This document shows, piece by piece, positions 29,463 through 53,085 of a DNA stretch of 64,000 nt (position 1 is the stretch's first letter; each line of letters starts with the position of its first letter). A program made the translations under genes and the position numbers. The stretch is from Grammothele lineata (taxonomy: Eukaryota; Basidiomycota; Agaricomycetes; Polyporales; Polyporaceae), in assembly GCA_002150815.3 (NCBI GenBank), contig NDFF03000141.1:62001-126000 (forward strand), written 5' to 3'. The notes under the pieces were generated by a model, which was not told the DNA's origin, made no database searches, and saw only the letters and a program-made list of their open reading frames with translations.

Positions 29463-32202
29463 ATGAGCGTGGCTACGCAGGCGATGCCGCCACCTCCGGC
29501 ATTAAATGGTGGGGAGAACGGGGTGGTAGGTAAAGGCATGGACGGGGCAAACGGCGCGCATAAGGAGCCCAAGTTCGCCAGCGGCCTCATCCTCCCTCCG
29601 CCTGAGATCAAATGTGAGAAAACTCCTCTTCATTTTGTTGTTATTAGTATTAAATGTGTTTTGCAGCCGTCATCGACCGCACCGCGACCTTTGTCGCGCG
29701 GTCGGCGAACCCGCCGCAGTTCGAGGAGAAGATCCGCGAGAACCAGCGTCAGGACCCCAAGTTTGCGTTCCTCAACGCCGCCGACCCTTACCATGCTTAC
29801 TATAGGCACCGCATGGACAAGGTGCAGCGCGGCGAGCTCGACGACGAGGTTGCACCGGCGAAGGAGGGCTCGGTTGAGAAGGCGGAGGAGGCACCCGTTG
29901 AGGCTCCGGTAGATATGGGCGAGGAACCCCCTGCCCCGGACTTCATTTTGAGCATACCGAACGTCACGGCCATTGACTTGTACGCCCCCTTTCTACGCTC
30001 ATTCTTTGCATGTAACGCTCATGCCGAGTCGTGTCTCGCAGGGACATCATCAAGCTCACAGCGCTCTTCACCGCGCGCCGAGGTCGCCCGTTCCTCGCCG
30101 CGCTCTCTGCACGTGAGGGACGTAACTACCAATTCGACTTCCTCCGCCCGACGCACTCGCTGTTCGGGTACTTCAACAGGCTCGTGGACCAGTATTCGAA
30201 GGTGCTTCTACCCAGCAAGGAGACGCTCGCGCAGCTCAAGGAGCGGACGCGGGATGGTGCGCGTTGGAAGGATCTCGAGGTCGCGAGGAAGCGGGCGCGC
30301 TGGGAACATGTGAAGAGGGAGCAAGACAAGAAACGGGAGGACGACAAAGAGGCGGAGCGAGGTAAGTGTTCACTGGTATGCTATTCAGAACTTGCGTTGG
30401 CTGAAGAACATTTGCTCGGTAGTTGCGTTCGCGGAGATTGATTGGCACGACTACGCCATCGTGCAGACGATTGAGTTCACGGCCGCAGACGCCACCTCGG
30501 AGCTGCCCCCGCCGATGAGCGTGCAGGAGGTCGAGAGCATGACGCTCGCCCAGAAGAGGATGGCGGCGATGATCATGGAGACGACCGCCGAGGACGTCGA
30601 GGCTCACCGCGCGCGCCAGGCTGCTGCCGACGCCGAAGCAGCTGCAGCTGCAGCTGCGGCTGGCGGTGATCCGGAAGACACGGTCATGATGGAAGAGAGC
30701 GACGACGAGGACGACGAGGCGAAGGAGAGGAGGCGGCGCGACGAGGAGGAGCGGCAAAAGGAGATCGAGCGGGCGAGGGCTATCCAGGCAAGCTCTCTGG
30801 ACGTTGGCGGCCCAATGAAGATCAGGACGGACTACGTGCCTAAACGTGAGTACCCAGGTGCAGTTGTCTGTGATGGTCCCATTCTGATACCACGACTTCC
30901 ACAGTATCGAAGAAGAATGTGGAGAAGCTCACGACATGTACCATTTGTGGCCAGCAAATACCCGTCGACGAGCTGCAGGAGCACATGCGTATCGAGCTGC
31001 TCGATCCTAAGTGGAAGTCGCAGCGCGACGCGCTCGAGGCACGCAAAGCGCAGGCCTCCGAGCTCCAACGCGGTGCCAATGTCGTGTCCTCGCTCAAGAA
31101 TCTCGCACGAACACGTGTCGACATTTTCGGTGCCGAGGCGGACGAAGAGAAGCGGAAGAAGGAGGAAGAGGAAGAGCGGCTGCGCAGGAGGGAGCGCGAG
31201 AAGGTCGTCTGGGATGGTCACACCGCGTCCAAGGCGAACACCCTCGACAAGTTCTCAATGAACTCCAACATCGACGAGCAGATCGCCGCTATCCACCGTG
31301 CCAAGGGTCTTGGGCCGTGCGTATCTCTCACACTCTGTATGATGTCCTATTGACCTTACTCTTCTCTCCACTAGGCAAGAAGCGAATGCCATTGGCCCTG
31401 GCATCGGTCCGGCCTCCATCCCCGCCCCTCTCAGCTCCCTCCCGCCCGCCCCCGCATCCCTCCCTGCCCCGCCCACAGGTGCCGGTGCGCCAAACCCCGC
31501 CTACACCGCCGCGACGGTCTCCTCCGGCCCGCAGCCCGCGTCGCTCTTCCCGCCGCAGCCCGCCCCGGTCATGCTACCCCCTCTGCACTACCAAGGTCTC
31601 GACGCCGCGCAGCCGTTCGGGTACCAGCCACCACCGCCTGGCGCCCCTATGATGCACCCTGCGCGCGCCGCGGCGATGGCGGCCCCGCCTGCGGGTACGC
31701 CGCCACCTGCACAGGCAGGCGTCGTGCGCAGCGCGGACGAGATGGAGGATGGTGCCGACGACGGCGTACCCCCCGCGAAGCGCCAGCGCGTACAGAAGTT
31801 GCCTGGGGGCGGGTTGTACCCCGAGCAGGATTGGCTCAACATGCACCCGGTGAGTTCTCTCTGCATTGCCGTTTCATTTGATTCCTGTACGAACGCTGAC
31901 CGCCCACCGCTCCTACGCAGCACCCGATCTCGCTACGCGTACAGTTGCCGAACGAGTCGGCGCGGCCAGAGTGGAAGTTCGACGGGACGGTGGTGACGAT
32001 CCCGGAGCTGCCACTGAACCTGCTTGTGTCGACGCTCCGAGATCGTCTTATCCAGCACACGGGGAGCACGATCGGCGCGTCGAAGATCAGGTTCTCGTAC
32101 GCAGGGAAGATGCTCACCAACACGCACACGATCGCGACGCACAACCTCGAAGACGAGGATATGGTCGTCGCGACGGTCCGCGACGAGAAGAAAAAGAAGT
32201 AG
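29463..32202 (+). CDS. SF3A1: splicing factor 3A subunit 1 (SF3A1/Prp21)
   Basis: U2 snRNP component needed for prespliceosome assembly. Seven exons (29463-29613, 29667-29979, 30042-30361, 30423-30845, 30905-31316, 31375-31849, 31921-32202) give 791 residues. Domains in order: SURP1 (DRTATFVARSANPPQFEEKI, ADPYHAYYRHRM); SURP2 (IIKLTALFTARRGRPFLAAL, RPTHSLFGYFNRLVDQY); acidic and polyalanine stretches; a zinc-finger-like CTICGQQIPVDELQEHMRIE; a Pro-rich region; a C-terminal ubiquitin-like domain (SLRVQLPNE, TIPELPLNLLVSTLRDRL) ending in four lysines. This is the full architecture of human SF3A1. Confidence 0.93.
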
Positions 32203-38948: not shown

Positions 38949-39346
38949 AAATCTCTTGCTTCGTAATTGTCGTTTTGATCTGCCGGATCTGCATACGTTT
39001 TTCTTGACTGCTAAGTTATCAAGACATCCTTCGTCAGAGGTCGTGTTTGTAACCGGCCACCATACACTCCTTCATCTTGTTTCCGTCCTTGTATCCTTGC
39101 TTGTCGTTCCTTAGTTCCCCGTGTAGCAATAGCGATATCAATTTAGAACTTTTGGTTGGAGCTACTGCGATGGGAAGAATTCCTAGTAATATACATTCCG
39201 AGTTCCTAGATACCAGCACGATTAAATCCCGTACCATATCAAGTGAAGAGCGACAGATGAAGCAGGAGAGCATGATACAAGCAAAGCAAGTGCAGGACGA
39301 ACGATAACCCTGAGGATGATGCCAGATGGAAAGATGAAAGGGAAAT

Positions 39347-41223
39347 CTATAGATCCGTCCAATTTATACCATCGTCAACTTCGTTCCAATATTCCGAGTC
39401 AGAGTTTTCATCAACTTCTACATCGCCCTGCTGCGTGATATCATGTGCGGGGACTGGAAGCCCGCTTGGAATCGTACGCTCAACGTCCATCGGCTGGTGG
39501 GACGCTATGCTGGAAGAGGCTGCTCCATCCGCCAAACCCACGGCTCTCCAAAGGGCCTCTTCGTCCTCGTCCATCTCTTCCGTGTCGGATTGCGTTGGGG
39601 TGGATGGTGGAAGAGTCCCGCTGCTCGACACATACGGTGAGCTCAGAGCAGTGCGGTACGACCGAGACGATCTGGTGGTTAAGGAGGGCGACGAGGAGCG
39701 GACAGACGATCCGGATGCGTAGCTGAGGGATTGATGCGTGTACGGCGTCCGCGTGCCCGACCGGGACGTTGACCGGGATGGCGACCGAGATATGTATGAC
39801 AGGGACCGCGGAGTCGACAAACCCGATGACCGCCAAGAGACAGACTCCCAGCCACTGATTGTGTGCGTGCTTGCACTTATCGTTGAGACCGTCGGGCTGG
39901 CGGGAGGCGTAGAGACGGGGTACGGATCCGGGGGTGGCTCCGCAGGCGTGAAACCGACGATACCCTCCTCAAGGATCACGTAGTCGCACGAGGCGGGGAC
40001 CGCGACGTTCGAAAAGATGACCGTCAGTCGTCGCAAAGCTAATTCGTCTTCGTCCGCGTCAGGATTTAACGCCTCCGGCCCCCTGCCGAGTGCGTATGCG
40101 ACGCGCGGGAGCGTCGTCGTGCGGATCGTACGGCTGAGCATCGCGCGTGCGTTGAGCTGGTTCGGCCAGACGTGTCCGAGGATGCCTTCGTGCGCGTCCT
40201 CGTTGGGCAAGGTGTGCGCTCGAGCGAACCAGCGCGCCTGGTCTGAATAGCGCAGTTGGTCTGCGGAGGTGTCCTGTCCTGCTGTGCGGGCAGGCGAGTT
40301 TCGTGTGCCCCCAAGGATGATGACGGCCAGCTTATATTCGCTGGCGAGGTAGTGCGCGAGCGAGCCGATCCTACGCAGAATTTGGGCGCGGAAGGTAAGG
40401 TCCTCGAATATGGGATAGTTGCGTGTATCGAAGATGTCAGAGATGAGGTCGACGACGACGAGTTTGAGAGGCTTCGTGGCGAGGTGCCGCTCTGCGACTT
40501 CGGGCACACTCTCTTCGAGTACGCGAATGAGTGTTTCGTAGTTACCCACACTGTCGAATATAATGTGGGGCGCATGGTGGGCACAATGTTCACCAGAGAG
40601 GCGAGGGTTGCTCTTGAGGATTTGATTCAAGCGCTTGGCAGACTCACGGAGCAGATCTTCCCGTGTGGTAATGTAGTATGCTGATCCAGAGAGCCCTCCT
40701 TGTTTCACGGGAAGCTGGACAGAAAGTGCAAGTTGTAAAGCCAGCTGTGTCTTTCCCACGTTGCTAGAACGTGTGAGCCTTAGCCACACAGGCAAAAGGC
40801 GGCCCGCAGCGAAATGAGGCAGACCTTTCACCACAAATCTCCCAGACCATGCCGGTGCGGATTCCTCCACCGAAGGCTTGATCGACCTCGAAGTCTCCGG
40901 TCGTGAACATTTCTGTCTCAATCCCGCGAGAGAACATCTTGCCGAGAGGCCGCGGCGCGACGTCGTGGTAGAGATCCCTGCAGGCGAGGTCTATTAGAGT
41001 CTCCATCTTGTCGAGGCGTATGCAGCATTTCTTGGCGGCATCTTTGGGTGTTTTAGAGAGGAGATCGGCAACCGTCTTGAGCTTTCCTGTCACATGGAAT
41101 CCGTTCAGTACAACTAGCAACGCTTCGTAGAATGACATACGAAATATCGCACACACCTCGAGCCAAGTCTTGCTTCTGAGTGGGGGTGAGACTTGGGAGA
41201 CCAGACAAGAGCCGCTTCTCCAT
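39347..41223 (-). CDS. RAD57: RAD57-like RecA-fold recombinase paralog, copy A (intact)
   Basis: Rad51 paralog of the Rad57/XRCC3 type, which assists Rad51 filament assembly in recombinational repair. Exon 1 is 41157-41223. The N-terminal region includes KLKTVADLLSKTPKDAAKKC and FEVDQAFGGGIRTGMVWEI. Walker A is G-E-S-N-V-G-K-T-Q, formed across an intron that splits the Ser codon. Then QLALQLALSVQLP, the Walker B-like LKLVVVDLISDIF and WPNQLNARAMLSRTIR. Past RRLTVIFSNVAVPASCDYVI comes a long Ser/Thr-rich tail ending EYWNEVDDGINWTDL. Total about 585 residues, longer than yeast Rad57 (460) because of the tail. It is the only one of the three neighbouring copies with its whole frame and tail intact. 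Confidence 0.82.
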
Positions 41224-41732
41224 CTCCGGCCTATATACCTCCGCGAGTCGGGCGATCGGTGGTGGCGTCGCGGTCGCGGACCTCGTTTCCAGTTACCGCG
41301 ACACGATCGACGCGTAATCCGTGCCGGCGATCAAACTTAAAGCGTTTATCATGTGACATCTACTCTCTGGAATCTGGAGAGATCTGGAACCTGCTATTGC
41401 CTCGGTACTACACACTACACCTGACTTTGCAACCAACTAGTATTCCAAGCCTGGTCATATCTAGCACGCCACCGCGAATCAAGGGTTGGCAGTGGATAAT
41501 AATACAATGATCCAAGACGACATTCAGTCTGAGACGACAGTGACCGTGACTGTCAATAAGTTCAGTGGATTAGAGGCCTAGTATGTTATCGTCAAGGAAG
41601 TCCCAATTCGCGGTTGTGGCCATTCTCTGGGTGATCATTTGACATTCGCGAGAGACAGAAGTTTTATGAGTGTCAAATCGCCGCCTCCATATGCTCATAT
41701 AACGCTCTTCCAAAAAGGATAGCGCCGTTCGC

Positions 41733-41993
41733 TTAAGCTACAGCATTCCAGAGCGCCTCCTCATCTAAGTCCATACTGGACTGCATCGAGGTGGCGGGAG
41801 GGCATGTGCCAGTACTGGAAACAAATGGAGAGCTTCCAGCGAGGGCCGTGCGATATGACAGGGATGGTGAATCGAGGGACTGGTGGAGTGACGAAGAACA
41901 GGCGAACGCGTTGGACGTATCGTGATATGAGTGACAGTGCATGCTGATTGATCGCGACGCTGACGAGGACGACTCGGAAACATATGAGAGGGA
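41733..41993 (-). pseudogene. remnant of the C-terminal tail of RAD57-like copy B
   Basis: Directly downstream of the copy B stop at 41994-41996 the same frame continues without interruption to a second TAA at 41733-41735. It still resembles the tail of copy A: SLSYVSE against SLSYISR, SYRTALAGSSPFVSS against SYRTALSSPYVSS, and DEEALWNAV against DEEALWRAV. The final segment ending in NWTDL is absent. The first stop is therefore secondary, and this part no longer codes unless it is read through. Confidence 0.7.
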
Positions 41994-43414
41994 TTAGAGC
42001 AATGGAGGAGTTAGCCCATCCAACGACCTTCGGGAAAGTGATTGCGGGTTTCGATAAGAGCTGCCAGTGTCGTTGCTTGACGTGGAAACTGGGGCGCTGG
42101 CAGGTGGTATCGTGGCGGGATATGATGATGAGGGAGAGGTTTCTGGTGGGAAACCAACCAGGCCGTCGTCTAAGATAACATAGTCGCATGACGCGGAAGG
42201 GGCAGCGCTCGAGTAGATGACTGTCAGGCGGCGGAGTGGCACCATGTCTTCTCCCGCTTTTGCACCTTGGCCAATGGTCACTGAACCCCCGAGTTCACGT
42301 GTGAGCCATCTACAGGTCCTAGTGCGGTTGGTACGGCTGAGTATCGCGCGCACGTTGAGCTGGTTCGCCCAGACGTGTCCGAGAATGGCCTCATGAGCGT
42401 CTTCGTTTGGAAACGTATCTGCTCGGGAGAACCACCGTGCCTGATCCGAGTAGCGTAGCCTGTCTGCGGCGGTATCCTTGCCGTCAGTGTAGGGGCGTGA
42501 GTCTTGCACGCCACTAAGGACGACAAAGGCGAGCCTATACTTCTTAGCGAGGTGATGCGCGAGGAAGCCAATGCGGTGCAGGACCTTGGCGCGGTATTTG
42601 CGATTTTTGTATATCTTGTGTTTGAAGAGGTCAGTGAAAAGGTCGACCACGATGAGTTTGATGGGTTTCGCAGTTTCAATGGTCATTTGTCGTTCCACAG
42701 TTTCGAGGGCTCTTCCACCAAGTATGTCGATGAGGGCTCGTCCATCATCTGTATGGTCGAAGTGGATATGAGGAGCACTACCACTGCAGTGCGTGTAAGA
42801 GGGAAGAGTGCGAGAGTTGGCCAGGACCTGGTGCAGCCGTTCAGACTCTGCCATAAGGTCATTGCGTGAAGCGATGTAGTAAGTTGACCCAGATAGACCT
42901 CCAAGCTCTGGAGGAAGCTGGACAGAGAGGGCCAACTGTAGTGCCAGCTGCGTCTTTCCCACGTTGCTGGAACGAGCAGTCAGAACACGCGTAAGACAAC
43001 TCAACTGACGCTTGGTTGACCAGACCTTTCGCCACATATTTCCCATACCATCCCGGTACGTATGCCTCCTCCAAGTGCTTTGTCAATTTCGAAATCTCCC
43101 ATCATGAACATCTCTTCCTTAACCTCGCGAGGAGAAAGCTTGCTGAAGGACTCTGGTGCGACTTCGTGGTAGAGATCTTTGCAGACGACGTCTATTATGG
43201 TTTCCATTTTGTCAACGCGTATACCACATCTTCTAGCTGCATCTACGGATGGATTAGAGAGAAGATCGGTCACTGTCTTCAATCTCCCTACGTCGCGGTG
43301 GCGGTTCAACGATAATGTAGATGGCAAACAACAAGACTGATACGCACCTTTAGCCAGATCAGACTTCTGAGTATGTGTGAGGCTTGGGAGGTGGGACAAG
43401 AGTTTTCCCTCCAT
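41994..43414 (-). CDS. RAD57-like recombinase paralog, copy B (tail truncated)
   Basis: Starts MEGKLLSHLPSLTHTQKSD, collinear with copy A. The core is intact: RLKTVTDLLSNPSVDAARRC, FEIDKALGGGIRTGMVWEIC, Walker A G-E-S-N-V-G-K-T-Q across an intron at the same codon as in copy A, IKLIVVDLFTDLF, DQARWFSRADTFPNEDAHEA, WANQLNVRAILSRTNRT, RRLTVIYSSAAPSASCDYVI. By eye over half of the core residues equal copy A. The frame ends at TAA 41994-41996 in the Ser-rich tail, leaving about 435 residues. Either a functional shortened paralog or an early pseudogene. No frame break was seen in the core, and the splice sites are canonical. Confidence 0.7.
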
Positions 43415-43638
43415 AGGCGACTGTGGGCATGTGCCAATGCATCCAGTCATCGACGGCGATGGCGTTCTGGAGGATACACGACCGTTGAGCCTGTTCGAGT
43501 ATGAAGTTTATGTCATGCGACTTCAGCGGAGATCATTGGGAATTCCAACGCGAGCGCGACCGGCAATCAAACCGCTCTTCTCAAGGACATACTACCTACC
43601 AGCTGTCTACTACTTAGTAATTTAATAGTAACACTAAC

Positions 43639-43672
43639 GGTTTTTACTCTCCGAACTTCTAGGAGTAAAACC
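43639..43672. repeat. short hairpin-forming inverted repeat
   Basis: ggtttttactc and gagtaaaacc form a near-perfect stem of ten pairs around a short loop, in AT-rich sequence upstream of copy B. Function unknown. It could be the remnant of a small element or chance. Confidence 0.35.
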
Positions 43673-43827
43673 ACTAAATCGTAGAAATCAAGCTACGTCT
43701 CATCCCATCAAGGCTATAGCGAAGTCGCGGTGTTGCAATAACACTGACAGCAAGGTACGATAGCGAGTTAACAGCATATGGTACATAAGTACAGATCAAG
43801 TCACGGCCAGCGTGCAAGAGAGAAATC

Positions 43828-43872
43828 CTACAAGTCAGTCCAATTAACACCATCGTCCGTGTCTTTCCAGTA
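43828..43872 (-). pseudogene. displaced 3' end of RAD57-like copy C
   Basis: Read on the minus strand this codes YWKDTDDGVNWTDL followed by TAG (43828-43830), matching the C-terminus of copy A (YWNEVDDGINWTDL). It lies immediately beyond the 1314-bp element. Joining it conceptually to the sequence at 45187 after removing one copy of the 8-bp duplication restores one continuous frame, so this is the original end of copy C, now cut off. Confidence 0.85.
43865..43872. repeat. left target-site duplication (8 bp)
   Basis: ttccagta, identical to 45187-45194 on the other side of the element. A perfect 8-bp duplication is typical of hAT transposon insertion. Confidence 0.85.
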
Positions 43873-43891
43873 TAGGGTTCCGCAACTAAGT
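43873..43891 (+). repeat. left terminal inverted repeat
   Basis: 19 bp, perfect inverse of 45168-45186. It defines the left end of the hAT-type element. Confidence 0.9.
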
Positions 43892-45110
43892 CCCCGGCCA
43901 GTTAGTAACATATGTTACTTACAAGAGGGCCTCTGGCGACTTTTAAACCTATGTTACAAATTAGTTACTATGTTAAAAAGTCCGTAGGACGCTCAAAAGG
44001 CGGGGAAATGGGTTAAAATAGCGTTTCTGGTCAGTTTCCTTCCCTTCAGATTCGTTTCCGAGCCTTCCAGCTGACTCTGGAAGCATGGTGCGTGTTTTAA
44101 ACGCATCGGAGGGACTTTGCGACAGTAGGCGCCTAGTATTCACGGTGCATGGGCGTCGCATGTACATGACATCAGAGGGGCCGACAGACCAGCTCATGAG
44201 GCAAGTGAAACTTTCAACGTCTATGTGCGGCACCTCGTCTGATCAATCTCGAAGGTGCCGACTCTGAGCCGCTACTGTACCCGGTGTGAGGACGTTTGCG
44301 CGGAGGAGCCGCAACCACGCAATCGCGCACAAACACCCCGGGGAAGCCGCAACCATCGCTTACATCACGGAGGAGCCTACATTGTGGGAAGAGCGTAAGA
44401 ACGCATAGCTGTGAGCGTAGACCGGCGTCGACCCCCGCGCGACGGAGCCTTAATGCGCCCGGCGGGATGCCGGTGAGGAAACCGCTCCCATCGGCGGGCA
44501 TGCGTGCGGAGGCGCTTGAAGACTTGAGGCTGAAGGATCACGATTCGGTGTGGCCGTGAGCTGGTCGAAGGCGCTGCGAAAGTTGTCTTGGAGGAAATGC
44601 GTGCTGTGGCGCATAGAGACTTCGTTCACCGGAGGCCTCACTGTTATAGTAGTAAGTAACATTTGTTACTAACGAGCCAGGTTACCCAGTAGTTCGCTTA
44701 ATAAGTATTCTCTCTTCGAAGGCTCACAATTGATGGCTCAAGAGGATAACATTATCAAAACATGATGAGACTTACGACAGAGAATGACACCTTGCAAGAA
44801 GTTCCTGCAGGATCAACGGTGACCGGTGAAGGGCCAAGTTCAACGGCTGTACCACGACCGACGCAAACATTTAAAACCCTTAAAGGCGCATCGGGCCGGG
44901 AAAAACCCGGCCGGTCGGCTCACCGCCGGGCCGCTCGCTCACGCAGCCCATACCAACTTGAACCTCGAGTAGCATAAGTATTTTGCTACCTAGACCTCGT
45001 GCACCGCGCTCGCTGCTGCTTAGATCTACTGACCAACCCCAAGGTGAGTTTTTTACTTTGTGACGACTTAGTTACACCCCAATTTCACAGCTTATCGGCG
45101 GCTGTGTAAT

Positions 45111-45131
45111 TAACACGTTACTAACGTGTTA
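45111..45131. repeat. perfect palindrome near the right end of the element
   Basis: taacacgtta-c-taacgtgtta: two 10-bp arms around one base, about 37 bp inside the right terminal repeat. A candidate protein-binding site within the transposon. Confidence 0.7.
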
Positions 45132-45158
45132 TTAACACCACTTAGTTACAAGTGTTAC

Positions 45159-46895
45159 TTAATAAGCACTTAGTTGCGGAACCCTATTCCAGTAGTACTC
45201 CGAGTCAGAGCTCGCATGTCCTCCTCCGTCATCGGGTTCTGGCTCATCTGGCGGGGGCCCATCTTCGGCTACTGCCGTGACGATTTCAGCGTTGTCAGCG
45301 CTAGGTTCGTCCACGAGCTGGGTGAGGATATCCTCGTCAGCTTGGGTGTGCCTCCAATAGAGCCCCTCGTCGTCAATCCCACTGGACGACTCTACTTGGG
45401 GCGGGGGTGTTGAGGGAGGGGAAGACAACACGGCTCTATATGCTGCAGGAGTAGAATGTCGGGATGAGGTTACTGAGGGCGCTCTGGAGTCGCTCGCGCC
45501 TGAGGGGAATGGCTGAGCTCGTGACAATGCGCCGGCGGAAACGATCCGTACGCCTAAGGAGGCTTGAGTTGCAGGCGCACTGAGCGGGGTAGGCGTGGGC
45601 GTCGATGTTGGTGTCGCATACATGAAAGTTGAGGGCGGCTGCTCGACGATTGCCGACCCGACGACACCCTGCTCCAGCACGACGTAGTCGCACGACGCTG
45701 GAGGTGCGACGGACGAAAAGATGACGCTGAGCCTCCGGAAAGGTATCATTCCGTCGCCCGCATCAACCGCGCTCGCGTCGAGCCGCATACGCTTTGCGGG
45801 CCGTTCGTCGCGCGACCGAGGATCGATGTCGGCGCGGGAACGCATACGCCCGGTACGGCTCATCATGATCCGTGCGTTGAGCTGGTTCGCCCACACAAGC
45901 CCCATCTCCCCCTCGTGTACGTCCTCGCCTGGCATGCTATGTGCTCGCGTGAACCAACGCTCCTGATCCGCATACAAAAGTTCGTCTGGACGTGCGTCGT
46001 ACGCGTCGATCCGCACGGGCAGGGGCCGTGCGACCGTTAGGAGGAGTATTGCGAGTCCGTGGTCTGCGGCAAGGCGATGCAGAAGGAAGGATGCCTCTCG
46101 GAGGTGCTTGGCTCGGAGGTACCGGTCCTCGTACGTCGGGTCTTGGCCCCCGTCAAAGAAGTCGGAAAAGGTGTCAATAACGAGCAGTTTGGGCGGCCTG
46201 ATGTGAGAAGGGCCACCCGACTTGGTAGGAAAGATCTCCGTCAAAAGGCGGGTGAGCATGCCATAGCCGCGTGCTCTTTGTGTGTGAACCTCCTGGAGAC
46301 CACTGTGTTCGTGCGAAAGGCGGGGATGGTGGTCAAAGATCTGTTGTAGTCGCGTGGTTTGAAGCTCTTCTCGAGTGCAAATATAATACGCCGATCCAGA
46401 AAGTCCTCCGCGTTCCAAAGGCAGCTGCACTGTCAAGGCAAGTTGCATCGCCAGCTGGGTCTTGCCTGCGTTGCTGAAGAAAAGTGGTCAGCTGGAGGTA
46501 ATAGATCCTATAGTGCTTTGTAGCATACTTCTCACCGCATATTTCCCACAGCATTCCAGTACGCAGGCCACCGCCGAGCACCTTGTCGACAAAGTCATCG
46601 CCGGTCGTGAATGCCTCTGTTCCGAGATTGGCTACTTCCCTAAGGGGAGACGGTGGCTGATATAGCTCTTTGCATACAATGCCGACGATCACATCCATTT
46701 CTTTGAATGTGATCCTGCATCTCTGAGCGGCATCTGACGTTGTCAGCGAAAGCAGGTCGGCTATTGTCTGTAATTTTCCTGTGATCGGTCAGGACAAATT
46801 CTATGTTGACAAGTTAACAGGTGCTCACCCTTGGCCAGCGTAGTTTTCTGGGCCATCGAGAGGCTAGACAAATGTGCCAGGTATCGACTCTCCAT
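45159..46895 (-). CDS. RAD57-like recombinase paralog, copy C (3' end interrupted by transposon)
   Basis: Starts MESRYLAHLSSLSMAQKTT and runs KLQTIADLLSLTTSDAAQRC, VDKVLGGGLRTGMLWEICGE. Walker A is G-E-N-N-A-G-K-T-Q, again split by an intron at the same position. Then QLAMQLALTVQLP, PKLLVIDTFSDFF, WANQLNARIMMSRTGR, RRLSVIFSSVAPPASCDYVV and a long Ser/Pro-rich acidic tail. It is the most diverged of the three copies. The frame enters the inserted element after EYYWN and stops at 45159-45161 after eight element-coded residues (RVPQLSAY), replacing the original conserved ending at 43828-43872. The protein of about 545 residues could still be made with a changed C-terminus and a 3' UTR supplied by the element. 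Confidence 0.75.
45168..45186 (-). repeat. right terminal inverted repeat
   Basis: acttagttgcggaacccta, the perfect inverse of 43873-43891. It also codes the last residues of the present copy C frame. Confidence 0.9.
45187..45194. repeat. right target-site duplication (8 bp)
   Basis: ttccagta, identical to 43865-43872. Because the two copies are still identical, the insertion is probably recent. Confidence 0.85.
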
Positions 46896-47202: not shown

Positions 47203-50200
47203 TCATTGGCGCCTACCCAGTGACTGCGACGATTCGGTGCGGCCGAGCAACCCTCCGACCACGTTCGTCACCGTCTCTGTAATCTGCCGCTGGTGCGCCT
47301 GCGCGTGCTTCACATAGAACAACCTGACGGATGTCGAGTTCCAGATCCCGAGCGGTGTCATACCGCGTACGTAAATCTCGCCCCATATTAGCGAAGTGAG
47401 CCAGACGATCGACGCGTCGGACCACTGCCGTCTGGTGAGCCGCTACGTCTTGGGGGGAAAGGGATGAGTTAAACGTACCATGAATCGCCGGGGCGCGAAC
47501 GGTGGGGGCTTCGGTAACACATGCCCGAGGTTCGCGCTCCGGAGCATGTCGATGATCGCGCTGTTGGCGGTGGTCGCGTTCAACGACGCTTGTAGGTTCT
47601 GCACCTTTGGTAGCAGCTCCGTAATGATCAACATAACCGTGTCCAGCGGCAGCCTGGTTATCGTCATCAACGCTAAGCAGGTGAATCATAAAGAATGATG
47701 TTAGCTTACCCTTGATGCCAAGACGCAACCCACTCTTGCGTTGGCACAAACCCGTTGCGCCCAACACCTGCCGCCGCGAGCCGTTCCAAACTCCCCGTCA
47801 TATCACCTGATAATGACCGTCCCGCCGCCCTCATCTTGCCCCTCGCCTTCTCAGACATACTACCCGGCCCGTCGGTGTGGGGTAAAGGCGACCCGAAGCT
47901 GGACGCAGTTGGCGACATGAGAGGTCGCGCCGCAGTTGGTTCCTCGTCCGCGGGCGCTGTGCTGCCAGCCAAGATCGCCTCCTCTCGCGAAAGGTCGAGC
48001 TCCTCGACCTCGCGGCTGAGCGCTAACAGTCGCGCCTTCTCGCTCGCGGGGTCGCCCTGCTCCTCGTCGGTTGCGCGGCGCTTGCCCTTGTCAGCCGCAC
48101 CGTTGGCGCGTTCTTCCTTGGCCTGCTGAATGCGACGTATCTCGCGCAGGCCCCGTGCGAGCGTGAACGTGCCAAGGTCCTCGAACTGCTTGTGCGCGCG
48201 GATAATACCGTACACGAGATTTGGGTTCTCGGAAAGGTTGTGTAGGAGGAGTCCGTTAAATGCTTCGAGGATAAAGAAGAGCAGGCGGGGATGACCTTCG
48301 TCTGCAAGCAAGAAGGAAGGGTTGGAGAAGGCGGTGAAGAGTTGGATGAGCCGAGCCGAGGAGGTAACGTTGAGGTTCTTGAAGTATGGAGCGGAGTTTG
48401 ATAACGCTATGATGAGGGCTGGATACAGCGAGTTCAAGCTGCCTGATGTTGTCGCTACCATGGAGTATATAGACTATCCCATCGTCAACATTTAGAATCA
48501 GTTGCGAGAGCACGAGACGCACGTGGACCATGAAATCTCCTGCAGTGCCCATAGTCGCAAATTTTTGCGGAATCTGAGCCTTGATAGGACTGCTGAGTTT
48601 CTGTCCGAATGCACGCTCTGCCGATAAGCTCTGTATCAAGTATGAGAGCACACGGCACATCCCATGTTGTTCTGTGCAAAGCGGTCAGACTCAGTCGTTG
48701 AGAAAACGCGATCAATAATCACACACCGGGCTTGTCTTTGATCTCGAGGGAGTAGCATAGGAGATAAGCGAGGATATCCATTGCTTTGTCAGAGTCGAGG
48801 AGGTAAGCTCTGAATTTCTGTGAATGCCGTTAGAGTAGACTCGAATGGTGCTAGCGAAGTCATTACCTTGTTAAGTTCTACCATCTTCCGAAAGAAGACG
48901 ACTACAATCGTGTGAGAATACATCATTTCGAGATACGTGGAGGCGGCTCACTTGCTTCGACCATGTACGGAACGGACTTCTTCGACCCCGGAAGGAGATT
49001 GTTGACGGAGGACATTTGGTCTTCAAAAATCCCGACCATCCCGTTCAAGATGAACGCGAAGTCGTTTGGTCGATGCTAAGAGTTTGACAGCCATTCAGTC
49101 CACCATCTTCGCCACCGATACAGAGACTTCTACTTACCAGTTTCGCAATGAAATACCTGAAGGCATTCGTCTTCGTTGTCGGTCCCCCGGACTCGTCTCT
49201 CGCAGGCCCACTCTGGAAGTCGAGCAGCACGCAGAGCACTTGGAAGCACATCGAGACCAAGCTCATGCGTGGGTCCTCCCCCTTGAGCAGAAGGTGGTTG
49301 TACGGTAGGCGCCCCGCGACCGTGCCCATGACGTTCGCTGCGCCTCCGGCCGGGTGCGTAGCGTTCATCGCGGTGTTCATCAGGGAGCAGAGGACGGTGA
49401 GCACGTCTCTGCGCGGGAGGCCCTGTACAAAGTGCAGGGTGTACTGCGACGGTGACGTAAAGAGCGCGGAGGGTGGGGAGTATATTTGCCGCGATAGGAG
49501 GACGAGAAGGAGACGAAGGACTTCAGTCTTGTTGCTTTCATACTGCTGGCTGGGGCCCGGGTCAGCCGTGGAGCCAACACCTTTCTCCCTGTTAGTCTGC
49601 AGATGAGTTTCCTTCGCGGGTTCGAGGCGTACAAGTATGACGCACCATATAACGTAGTTGATCTTGTAGTGGTCTACCTGGATCTTCGTCGGCAGCGTGA
49701 ACCCACAGCAGAACATAAGGTCAATGAGGCAGCTGAACAGCCGCTCCGCGACCGACGGTAACGTCTCCTTGGGTCTCGCGGCTTGCGCCCTTCCCTCTGC
49801 CTGCCGCGGTGACACCCCCTTCGATGCTCGCTCGCCCTCTTCGTCCTCGCTCTCGTCCTCATCCTCAATGACGAACTGCGGCTGCGCGCTCGCCTCCTCG
49901 ACCGTCCCTCCCGACCCCCCATCCGTGGATGCCTCCGGTCGCTTCCACAGCACCTCCTGCTCGAACCTGCTCGGCTCGCTCTCGAGCTCAAACACAGCGG
50001 GCAGGACGCGCTCGAGGACGCGGATGCAGTTCAGGACCTCCTTCGTCGCGTTGCGCTCCGCGGCGCCGGTGCCCGCCGCGCGCACGAGCGTCGACGCGAG
50101 CGTGCTGGGCGGCGCGGGGAAGGTGTGGTCCGAGACGAGGTTGAAGAGCCGCGCGGAGATGACGCGCACGAGCGTCGCGACGTTCTCGGGGGCTTCATAC

Positions 50201-50650
50201 AGCGCGCGGCGGACTGTGCGGAAGGAGCGTGGCAGGAGGGACGGAATGGACGGAGAAACGGTATAGTAGATAAGAGCGCTATCCAGGAGCGTAACGAGAT
50301 GGCGTACGTACCGTCGTTATGCGTGATGAGCGAGAAGACGTCCGACGCCGAGTCGAAGAGGGTGACGTACTAGTCCGACCATGATACGTGAGTGATAAGT
50401 AGTATGCACAGGTGAATGGGCACGCACCTGGTCCCAATACGAGTCCCTCTCGGAGATGTTCTGAGTGCGACGCATAAGCACCCGAAGCCTAAGATACGTA
50501 GCCTCAGTACCACGCACTCACGCGGGTCGTGGCGAGTTTCGCTATGCCTCCCGGCTGGCTACGGAAGGCGAGCTTGGGCTGGTCCCCGAGGAGATTGAAT
50601 GGGTCCGGGATCTTCTGGGGAAACTTGGTAAACATTTTGAGGCCGTCCAT
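47203..50650 (-). CDS. HID1: HID1 family protein
   Basis: HID1 (high-temperature-induced dauer formation 1) proteins act at the Golgi in secretory-granule and membrane traffic; fungi carry a conserved member. The start MDGLKMFTKFPQKIPDPFNL lies in a good context (ccaccATGG). Later exons carry MRVISARLFNLVSDHTFPAP, EVLNCIRVLERVLPAVFELE, SVAERLFSCLIDLMFCCGFT, MAILAYLLCYSLEIKDKP, NLNVTSSARLIQLFTAFSNP, ILEAFNGLLLHNLSENPNLV and FEDLGTFTLARGLREIRRIQ. The C-terminal exons carry PLDTVMLIITELLPKVQNLQ and ESSQSLGRRQ. Many small introns; the last join (PRRFM to RLTRRQWSDA) is in phase. Exon limits in the middle (about 48480-49080) were not all resolved. Confidence 0.82.
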
Positions 50651-51082: not shown

Positions 51083-53085
51083 TCAGCACTGCTTGGCATA
51101 CGTCCCGCTCGACTTGCTTCCAGAACCTTCCTCAAGCTTGCCGTGGTGTCGCTCCGTCGTCACACGAGCCTTCATCGTGCCCAAAGCATGCATGGGACTG
51201 TCTTGCTGAACGAGGCCCTCGACAATCTCGATCTAAAAAACGAAGCGGGCAGTTATAAGGTATTCCCGCGGCGAGTGCTCGAGTATACTCACGATATCGG
51301 CAACCAGCCTGTCGACCATGACCGCCGTCATGGTCTCTCGCACAACGACGCGAAGGATCTCCACGTTGTCCAAGTTGGGCGCGAGCTCGTAGTTCGGGAC
51401 GATCCAGCCCTTCGCGCGAAGCAGGATCTGTACCCACTTTTGCTGGATGTCAGGGTTCTGCTGCTTGAACTCGTCCGTGAAGCGGAAGGAAACCACAGGC
51501 AAGCCGGGGGTGTAACTCTGAGGAAAAGAACTCGGTCAGCACGGAATTTGCACGAGAGTGGTAGCAGGATAACATACCTCAACGCTCTCCTCGTTGAAGG
51601 CGGCCGTTGCCTGAGACACAATACCCTCTGCGGGACGGTGGATGTCGCTCAGCACGACGAACAGGCCGCTCTTTTCCAAAGCGCGACTGAGGAGACGGGC
51701 GTTCTTCAAGTCCTGGAGCGCTACGTTGCGGTAACCCTCGAAGCCGAGATGAATGAAGTTGTAGTACTGTGCGATGATGGGGTGGGCCGGACGTGAGAAG
51801 TTCAGAGAGAACGAGTACTCCACCGAACCGAGATAGTGAAGCTCGAAAATTAGGTCTTTTGGCAAGAACTTCTTCGACCTCCAGACAACCCAACCGACGC
51901 CAACGTAAGAGAGACCAAACTTGTGGCCGGAAGCGTTGATAGAGACGACGCGCGGAATCCTGAAATCCCACTCGAGCTTAGGGTTGGCGAAGGGAGCGAC
52001 GAAACCGCCGGAAGCTCCATCCACGTGAATAGGTACAGAGTGGCCGGTATTCTTCTCATACTCGTCGAGAAGGTCAGCCATCTCTTTCACAGGCTCATAG
52101 TGGCCCGTATACGTGCCTACGTTGACTGAGTGAACACCCGTTCTAGTGTTTAACAGAGCGGACTACTCACTGCCGAGGATGACATAAACGCCGATCGTGT
52201 TCTCATCCACGTATTCCATCGCCCGCTTGGGGTCAAGGCGGTAGTGACTCTCCTCCGAGATTGGCACGAGGCGCGCTTCGACATCGAAGTAACGGGCGAA
52301 CTTCTCAAGTGCGACCTGGGCGTTCGCGCCCATGACGATGTTCGGCCCGGGCTCGTGGATGGACTTGCCTGCCGCTTTGCGCTTCTCTTGCCAAAGGCGC
52401 TTCATAGCGAGACCGCCGAGCTGAATAGCTTCCGAGGAACCGGTCGTGGCAGTGCCGATCGCTTGGCTGGCGGATGGAGCGTGCCAGACATCGGCGAGCA
52501 TGGATACACAGCGAGTGTGGATAACCTCTGTCAAAGCCAATGAGAAACTGTCCGCTGAAATTGCCAAAAGCTGCGCACGGGTCATAGGGTACTCATCCTG
52601 ATCGATGAGGTTCTTGGAGATGTTCTCCATCATGAGAGTGTCGGCCTGACGCGGCATCCATGTGTGTACGAATGACGCCAGGTTGAGGGCGGGTGTGCCG
52701 TCAAGCTCCAACTCTTCATGAATGAGTTGGTAGGCAGCCTCTGCGTCGACGCCCTAAGAGATACGTCAATATTTGCGTCATATTGGCCGGGGCCCAGACT
52801 GAAAACGTACCTTGGATGGAAGTCTGAATTTAGGGATGGGATCCGTGGCATAGCGAGCGCTGTAGGCGTGGACGGCATGATGGTCGGTGGAGCTATTGCC
52901 CAGGTGGTGGCGACCCTTGTGGTCCTGCACGGAGGTCAATGGCGAAAAGGGCGCATCGCTCTTGGAATTAACTCACTTTTGCAGCCTGGATGAGCTGGTC
53001 TGCGTTGATGTGCTGATAAGGAGGCGGTTCATCAATAACAATCAGGCTAGTATCAGATTTGATTGCATACCTTTGAGAGAGCCAT
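51083..53085 (-). CDS. GAD: glutamate decarboxylase
   Basis: PLP enzyme converting L-glutamate to GABA and CO2, the entry to the GABA shunt. The first exon codes only MALSK. Further exons carry the N-terminal region (KFRLPSKGVDAEAAYQLIHE, LNLASFVHTWMPRQADTLMM), GTATTGSSEAIQLGGLAMKR, NIVMGANAQVALEKFARYFD and PIHVDGASGGFVAPFANPKL. The PLP-lysine motif is VVSINASGHKFGLSYVGVGW, with Lys in HKF. SVEYSFSLNFSRPAHPIIAQ follows. The C-terminus is Ser/Lys-rich (KLEEGSGSKSSGTYAKQC). Fungal GAD length. A TATA-like site lies at 53137-53143, about 52 bp before the ATG. Confidence 0.93.

Follow-up and report, generated by a model that had tools for sequence, protein, structure and literature searches.

A stretch of 64,000 nucleotides from the fungus Grammothele lineata (Polyporales; GenBank assembly GCA_002150815.3, contig NDFF03000141.1, positions 62,001 to 126,000 of the forward strand; hereafter the window) carries three adjacent genes for RAD57-type Rad51 paralogs, which we call A, B and C. 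They lie head to tail on the minus strand, and the array is bounded by the stop codon of A, which starts at 39347, and the start codon of C, which ends at 46895. The gene models, predicted from splice signals and homology, are listed in Table 1 with the other features of the locus. All 6 introns have GT-AG borders and a length of 50-70 nt, and they occupy homologous positions in the three copies (intron 1 in phase 1, past codon 22; intron 2 in phase 2, in the Walker A loop). The cores, compared over 373-380 codons, are 59.5% (A-B), 49.5% (A-C) and 45.0% (B-C) identical in amino acids, and 65.8%, 57.5% and 54.2% identical in nucleotides.

Table 1. Features of the RAD57 array and its surroundings in the window
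Feature	Position	Strand	Basis and remarks
Copy A, RAD57-type Rad51 paralog, 581 aa	39347..41223	-	exons 41223-41157, 41086-40825, 40763-39347; Pfam Rad51 2.3e-18
Copy A tail, full-length, both acidic-aromatic motifs	within 39347..41223	-	translation and motif scan
Copy B, RAD57-type paralog, 433 aa to first stop	41994..43414	-	exons 43414-43348, 43287-43026, 42966-41994; Pfam Rad51 1e-12
Copy B, open stretch after the TAA	41733..41993	-	86 codons homologous to A tail, motif 1 DLDEEALW, then stop
Copy C, RAD57-type paralog, 543 aa	45159..46895	-	exons 46895-46829, 46778-46529, 46473-45159; Pfam Rad51 1.3e-18
Displaced original 3' end of C	43819..43872	-	joined flanks read ..DDGVNWTDL; C-terminus of A ..DDGINWTDL
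hAT-like DNA element, 1314 bp	43873..45186		perfect 19-bp terminal inverted repeats; second genomic copy; in last codons of C
Target-site duplication TTCCAGTA, left copy	43865..43872		flank comparison
Target-site duplication TTCCAGTA, right copy	45187..45194		flank comparison
HID1 (Hid1/Dymeclin family) exons, immediately upstream of copy C	47706..50316	-	Pfam PF12722 2.9e-34 and 8.8e-47 on two open frames

All three translations exceed the Pfam Rad51 cut-off and contain both a Walker A motif (GExNxGKTQ) and a Walker B motif (a hydrophobic run closing in D); the Walker A lysine and the Walker B aspartate are retained in B and C. Among proteins of solved structure, the top match of A is RAD57 of Saccharomyces cerevisiae (3e-22 over residues 27-269, plus a weak stretch at 304-378) and that of B and C is XRCC3, with archaeal RadA chains ranking between XRCC3 and RAD57. 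XRCC3 is also the top match in a profile search, and the nearest solved relatives overall are RAD57 and XRCC3, ahead of RAD51, DMC1, RAD51B/C/D and XRCC2. A fold comparison based on the predicted model of a relative, P0001, ranked XRCC3 first, with RAD51 and DMC1 within 2 Z units; RAD57 of yeast is missing from the 50 matches listed, and no conclusion is drawn from that. In the same model the N-terminal domain is predicted as helices within residues 14-61; an N-terminal stretch is common to A, B and C, and C aligns with P0001 over it. A structural account describes Rad55 and XRCC2 as being without an N-terminal domain, and XRCC3 as the proposed animal counterpart of RAD57 (PMC7618403). A, B and C nest within a single core-polyporoid RAD57 clade in a 56-row and a 42-row tree (100/100 in each), and three XRCC3/RadA-type rows fall outside the RAD57 clade in a quick tree that carries a long-branch warning on RadA. 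By these sequence criteria we regard A, B and C as confirmed RAD57/XRCC3-type Rad51 paralogs.

A first reading made from the sequence alone (the sequence-only reading) had proposed three adjacent same-strand RAD57-like genes at 39347..46895, and the stop of A, the start of C, the Pfam matches and the trees all bear this out. As refuting outcomes it had named a placement of the genes in different old Rad51-paralog families or an artefact of assembly, either of which we now consider exceedingly improbable. The former could be argued from XRCC3, and not RAD57, being the top solved match of B and C, but the proposed orthology of RAD57 and XRCC3 explains this result, and membership of distinct families is ruled out by the position of all three copies within one RAD57 clade with XRCC3 and RadA outside. 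The latter is ruled out by the 34-46% nucleotide difference among the cores, too large for an assembly duplicate, and related pairs occur in independent assemblies.

To the best of our knowledge RAD57 is normally single-copy in fungi, and within the open-licence PMC literature we found no title or abstract that describes RAD57 duplication in Basidiomycota. A search of the genome (41.8 Mb, 252 contigs) with residues 1-389 of A, at E values up to 10, found no further RAD57 copy outside the array. Besides the array, a Pfam Rad51 search of the genome returned a locus on C3 and another on C38; we take these for Rad51 (a label given by top score only) and Dmc1, respectively. Rad55 was not identified: a search for KaiC/ATPase domains gave eight places, none above the cut-off, although these searches are not sensitive to Rad55, and in three of the loci (L022, L024 and L026) no Rad51 paralog was seen on the one strand inspected, in frames of at least 60 aa. 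As for the wider surroundings, Pfam domains flanking the array comprise a pyridoxal-dependent decarboxylase at 52163-52753 (minus strand) and a PRP21-like splicing-factor domain at 30314-31261 (plus strand).

The order of the duplications was addressed with trees of 52, 58, 56 and 42 rows, plus the quick tree, which omits 13 rows. Neither the 56- and 42-row trees nor the topology tests include P0089 (a retained intron, with an end branch of 6.95 in the 58-row tree) or P0040 (40% of columns filled), and the 42-row tree was also built without rows shorter than 380 aa and without four further partial rows. The protein searches scored about 8000 candidates sharing the most words, and the relatives are the matches listed (in one search the best 120 of 143), so that a species with no second RAD57 listed is not evidence of a single copy. 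A and B are sisters in five of five trees, with support of 98/90, 95/90, 95/87 and 97/85 in the 52-, 58-, 56- and 42-row trees, which agrees with the core identities and upholds the earlier observation that C is the most distant of the three. The A/B pair groups with proteins P0015 and P0026 (100/100 in the 52-, 58- and 56-row trees), and C groups with protein P0095 (100/100 in the 56- and 42-row trees) and, in the 52- and 58-row trees only, with the partial Epithele typhae protein P0040. A clade made up exclusively of A, B and C is rejected at a cost of 107.9 log-likelihood (lnL) units (p 8.7e-40), and thus the split between A/B and C predates separation from the organism(s) carrying P0095, P0015 and P0026; one recent triplication is thereby ruled out.

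Pairs of RAD57 genes are also seen in Ganoderma, where two genes were found in 3 of the 4 named species among the matches listed. The tags are consecutive in both G. sinense (GSI_13544/GSI_13545) and G. adspersum (V8D89_007314/007315), and each of the two genes of G. leucocontextum is on a 184,015-bp contig; for G. boninense one RAD57 is among the matches listed. We divided the Ganoderma proteins into alpha and beta groups, which were defined after the tree had been inspected. A clade of alpha and beta alone is rejected (p 0.002), and one that also takes in Dichomitus is not (p 0.473, 0.73 lnL worse); the Ganoderma split seems to predate the divergence of Ganoderma and Dichomitus. The lineage-specific expansion suggested by the sequence-only reading holds for the A/B step only, relative to the relatives sampled; the A/B-C split predates the separation noted above, and RAD57 pairs exist in three Ganoderma species too. 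In Trametes sanguinea, protein P0006 is a gene model in which the end of HID1 continues into RAD57; with HID1 immediately preceding C in the window, also on the minus strand, C looks to be at the ancestral place. Two public annotations appear to be in error, namely this HID1-RAD57 fusion (P0006) and P0094 of G. boninense, a RAD57 labelled as a phosphatase 2A subunit. The core-polyporoid RAD57 stem is long, measuring 0.49 changes per column in the quick tree and 0.74-0.97 in the 58-, 56- and 42-row trees versus 0.17-0.33 for the Grifola end branch. These branch lengths suggest that RAD57 evolution accelerated ahead of the duplications, including in species with one copy among the matches listed.

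No stop or frameshift interrupts the core of B or C. The ratio of nonsynonymous to synonymous change (dN/dS, NG86 method) among the three cores is 0.18, 0.19 and 0.19, values that are rough because dS, at 1.6 to 2.7, is near saturation; a maximum-likelihood method agrees on dN and gives dS of up to 6.3 (B-C), and YN00 failed. Over 28 other Agaricomycete RAD57 rows, 66 columns are conserved; A is changed in 14 of them, B in 10 and C in 14, and 24 core-polyporoid comparison rows are changed in 7 to 16 of the 47-66 columns that they cover; gaps were scored as changes in A, B and C only, which biases the count against a conclusion of no excess. Excess decay of the B and C cores is accordingly not seen by either measure. 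As a group, the core-polyporoid proteins depart from the residue conserved elsewhere at a few sites; for example, they have residue N at one position of the Walker A loop in all 23 rows with a letter there, where alanine stands elsewhere, and the initial N of a conserved N-x-V is kept by none of the core-polyporoid comparison rows. Since the ATPase site of S. cerevisiae RAD57 is described in a review as dispensable for radiation resistance (PMC8472222), such changes at conserved sites need not mean loss. The cores of all three copies look constrained over their history.

The tails tell a different story from the cores: apparent decay is confined to those of B and C. That of B is interrupted by an in-frame TAA at 41994-41996, past which the frame is open for 86 codons and ends shortly beyond the first of two tail motifs described below. 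An alignment with the tail of A that also takes in the stretch preceding the TAA has 68 of 124 residues identical, and third codon positions are the most changed. It could be supposed that the TAA is intronic and the tail preserved by splicing, as an 84-nt GT-AG candidate intron (42027-41944, GTCGTT...CAATCAG) is divisible by three, skips the TAA and keeps motif 1, and an 81-nt variant with another donor is also available. However, other AG dinucleotides precede the chosen acceptor, and A and C needed no such intron; the candidate looks weak, and we find this explanation very doubtful.

The tail of C has been altered at its very end, where a putative non-autonomous hAT-like element (43873-45186) supplies the codons of the final eight residues together with a single base of the codon preceding them. 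The displaced original end (43819-43872) matches the 3' end of A (39339-39392) at 74.5% over 55 columns by blastn (E 6e-4; the two 100% matches of that run are overlaps of input segments), and P0095, the relative of C, retains such an end (..SSDSEHYWNDADGNIDWTNIP). A second copy of the element at C145:55569-56813 (1245 bp, 78% and 83% identical in two blocks) has its own 8-bp target duplication, ATGTCACT, and one further element end, with one mismatch, lies at C51:32659. An 8-bp target duplication together with such terminal repeats is typical of hAT elements, although other superfamilies may also give 8 bp. None of the seven open reading frames scanned within the element contains a transposase domain, as expected of a non-autonomous element.

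The tails were compared with those of relatives. Motif 1 consists of at least 3 acidic residues within seven, followed by an aromatic or aliphatic residue and W, with a consensus near E-D-E-W-x-x-Y-W. It was found in 86 of 97 countable tails, whereas shuffling these tails 200 times produced it in 3.1 on average and in no more than 8; the count leaves aside, from 154 proteins, 45 without the landmark and 12 with tails under 40 aa, and includes the three window copies, with B read beyond its TAA. The P0001 model has low confidence throughout the tail, apart from the region of a predicted helix at 480-499 that bears motif 1. Proteins P0062, P0064, P0069 and P0072 of Armillaria, Desarmillaria and Guyanagaster have no motif by this pattern; P0062, which is without the landmark, went uncounted, and the other three belong to the 11 motif-less tails out of 97. 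A second motif near the extreme end (S-D-S-[DE]-x-x-W and variants) occurs in 24 of the 40 core-polyporoid rows examined. Several of the 16 rows without it are shortened gene models, two Fomes-type rows (P0008 and P0017) stop before it, and in the Ganoderma-beta clade the five proteins that reach motif 1 terminate right past it. Of the window copies, A has both motifs, C has the first and a cut second, and B has the first, only beyond the TAA. Proteins that dock on RPA70N are reported to use acidic and hydrophobic peptides of about 20 residues, with a tryptophan of HelB placed in a side pocket (PMC10479964). The RAD57 motif resembles such peptides in composition only, and its binding to RPA is something that we infer.

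Taking these results together, we favor, with a probability of about 0.6, two rounds of tandem RAD57 duplication beside HID1, which left A as a full-length mediator subunit and B and C as tail-altered copies or copies in early loss. The older round, before the species of the window arose, would have separated C, next to HID1, from the lineage that led to A and B; in the younger, A would have split from B. Each copy would be a RAD57/XRCC3-type subunit of a Rad51 mediator, made up of an N-terminal helical domain, an ATP-binding RecA core and a long disordered tail. All three proteins would be made and would act on Rad51 filaments like yeast Rad57, which, in a tight heterodimer with Rad55, is described as promoting both Rad51 filaments and strand exchange with RPA (PMC8472222). 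A, as the presumed main subunit, would use its tail motif to dock on the basic groove of a partner, RPA70N being the best guess, and so take the mediator to RPA-coated single-stranded DNA. B and C, lacking all or part of the tail, might dilute or specialize this recruitment, or might be at an early stage of loss. As to contact with Rad51, the N-terminal domain of the neighboring Rad51 is reportedly moved by XRCC3, as seen by cryo-EM, and by yeast Rad57, in an AlphaFold3 model (PMC7618403).

Several points weigh against this scheme, among them the unstable branching order of the deep splits. The best topology-test tree joins A/B to Ganoderma beta (66/45), and C to Ganoderma alpha, Dichomitus, Fomes, Daedaleopsis, Lentinus and Cerioporus (59/25), such that the older split may be the same event as that behind the Ganoderma pair, but support for both groups is weak. 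The quick tree keeps A/B with Ganoderma beta (86% by the Shimodaira-Hasegawa-like approximate likelihood ratio test, SH-aLRT) but adds C to them (81% SH-aLRT), and the 52-row tree, which has fewer rows and no near outgroup, puts A/B and Ganoderma beta with Trametes (91/97). A single clade of A/B and C, with P0015, P0026 and P0095, is not rejected (2.2 lnL worse, p 0.336). This last result, like the equivalent one for the clade of Ganoderma and Dichomitus given above, would suit a family-level expansion in which the A/B and C lineages arose within the polyporoid group of the window while Ganoderma, with Dichomitus, duplicated independently. We hold this to be possible and give it a sizeable minority of our belief, the best trees preferring, if weakly, to join A/B to Ganoderma beta; even under such an expansion, the rejection of A+B+C alone places the A/B-C split before the species. 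On the functional side, a review relates that early tests saw no interaction of Rad57 with Rad51 (PMC8472222), the yeast Rad57-Rad51 contact is an AlphaFold3 prediction (PMC7618403), and no Rad55 partner was identified, in searches insensitive to it. The motif 1 pattern was devised after the tails had been inspected, and the sequences compared are related. Besides resting on a dS near saturation, dN/dS is an average over the whole history of the cores and is silent on the period since the TAA or the insertion.

A rival view takes B and C for pseudogenes in the making, with A as the sole working RAD57. The TAA in B, the replacement of the C-terminus of C by residues of an element with perfect inverted repeats and a target duplication, and the faster evolution of B than A (41 versus 23 unique core changes, p 0.033, a further point against our scheme) would all be in keeping with it. 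Against this stand the uninterrupted cores of B and C with their Walker A lysine and Walker B aspartate, a dN/dS of about 0.19, and a frame in B that stays open for 86 codons past the TAA and through a conserved motif. Moreover, the natural ends of the five Ganoderma-beta proteins just past motif 1 imply that a short tail need not be fatal. We therefore judge this view to be unlikely. The sequence-only reading had likewise wondered whether copies were dying, which describes the tails of B and C and not the cores, where there is no excess of changed sites; its remark that the copies share N-terminus, Walker A, core and tail layout is similarly correct for the first three and for the common origin of the tails, whereas their present state differs through the TAA of B and the element of C. 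Our verdict is that the array is neither a single recent burst nor a case of simple dying, and that it combines an old split of C from A/B, a younger A/B step, and cut tails in B and C.

RAD57 is a core homologous-recombination gene, and diverged adjacent copies with constrained cores and changing tails offer a natural test of its parts. The tail motif is widely conserved in Agaricomycete RAD57, falls on a predicted helix within the disordered tail of P0001 and is similar in composition to RPA70N-binding peptides, so that a contact between RAD57 and RPA is also easily testable. Although highly speculative, and improbable as a whole, it is tempting to picture a polyporoid set of RAD57 proteins that have a common core and differ in motif count (two in A, one in C and none before the TAA in B; two in Ganoderma alpha and one in beta), where the count sets recruitment to RPA-coated DNA. 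Duplication and tail loss would then yield graded Rad51 mediators, possibly assembling with one another in place of Rad55.

With respect to known systems, S. cerevisiae RAD57, the subunit of Rad55-Rad57, resembles A in an N-terminal part and RecA core that can be aligned, but its 460-aa chain stops at the end of the core of A (aligned to 457) and has no counterpart of the 200-residue tail of A; the fungus of the window also differs from yeast in having three copies. XRCC3 is similar as the top profile and fold match, yet it is without such a tail, the solved chain 8gja_B having 347 residues and aligning to 344 with the core end. The RAD57 pair of Ganoderma (e.g. GSI_13544/GSI_13545) is comparable in comprising two diverged RAD57s, with consecutive tags in two species, and its complete models show one two-motif and one one-motif tail; unlike the array, it has two copies and no third among the matches listed. 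Finally, Trametes and its relatives, for which one copy per species is among the matches listed in contrast to the three copies here, have RAD57 of the same core-polyporoid type, with two motifs in most models that reach the tail end, and in T. sanguinea the gene comes directly after HID1, just as copy C does.

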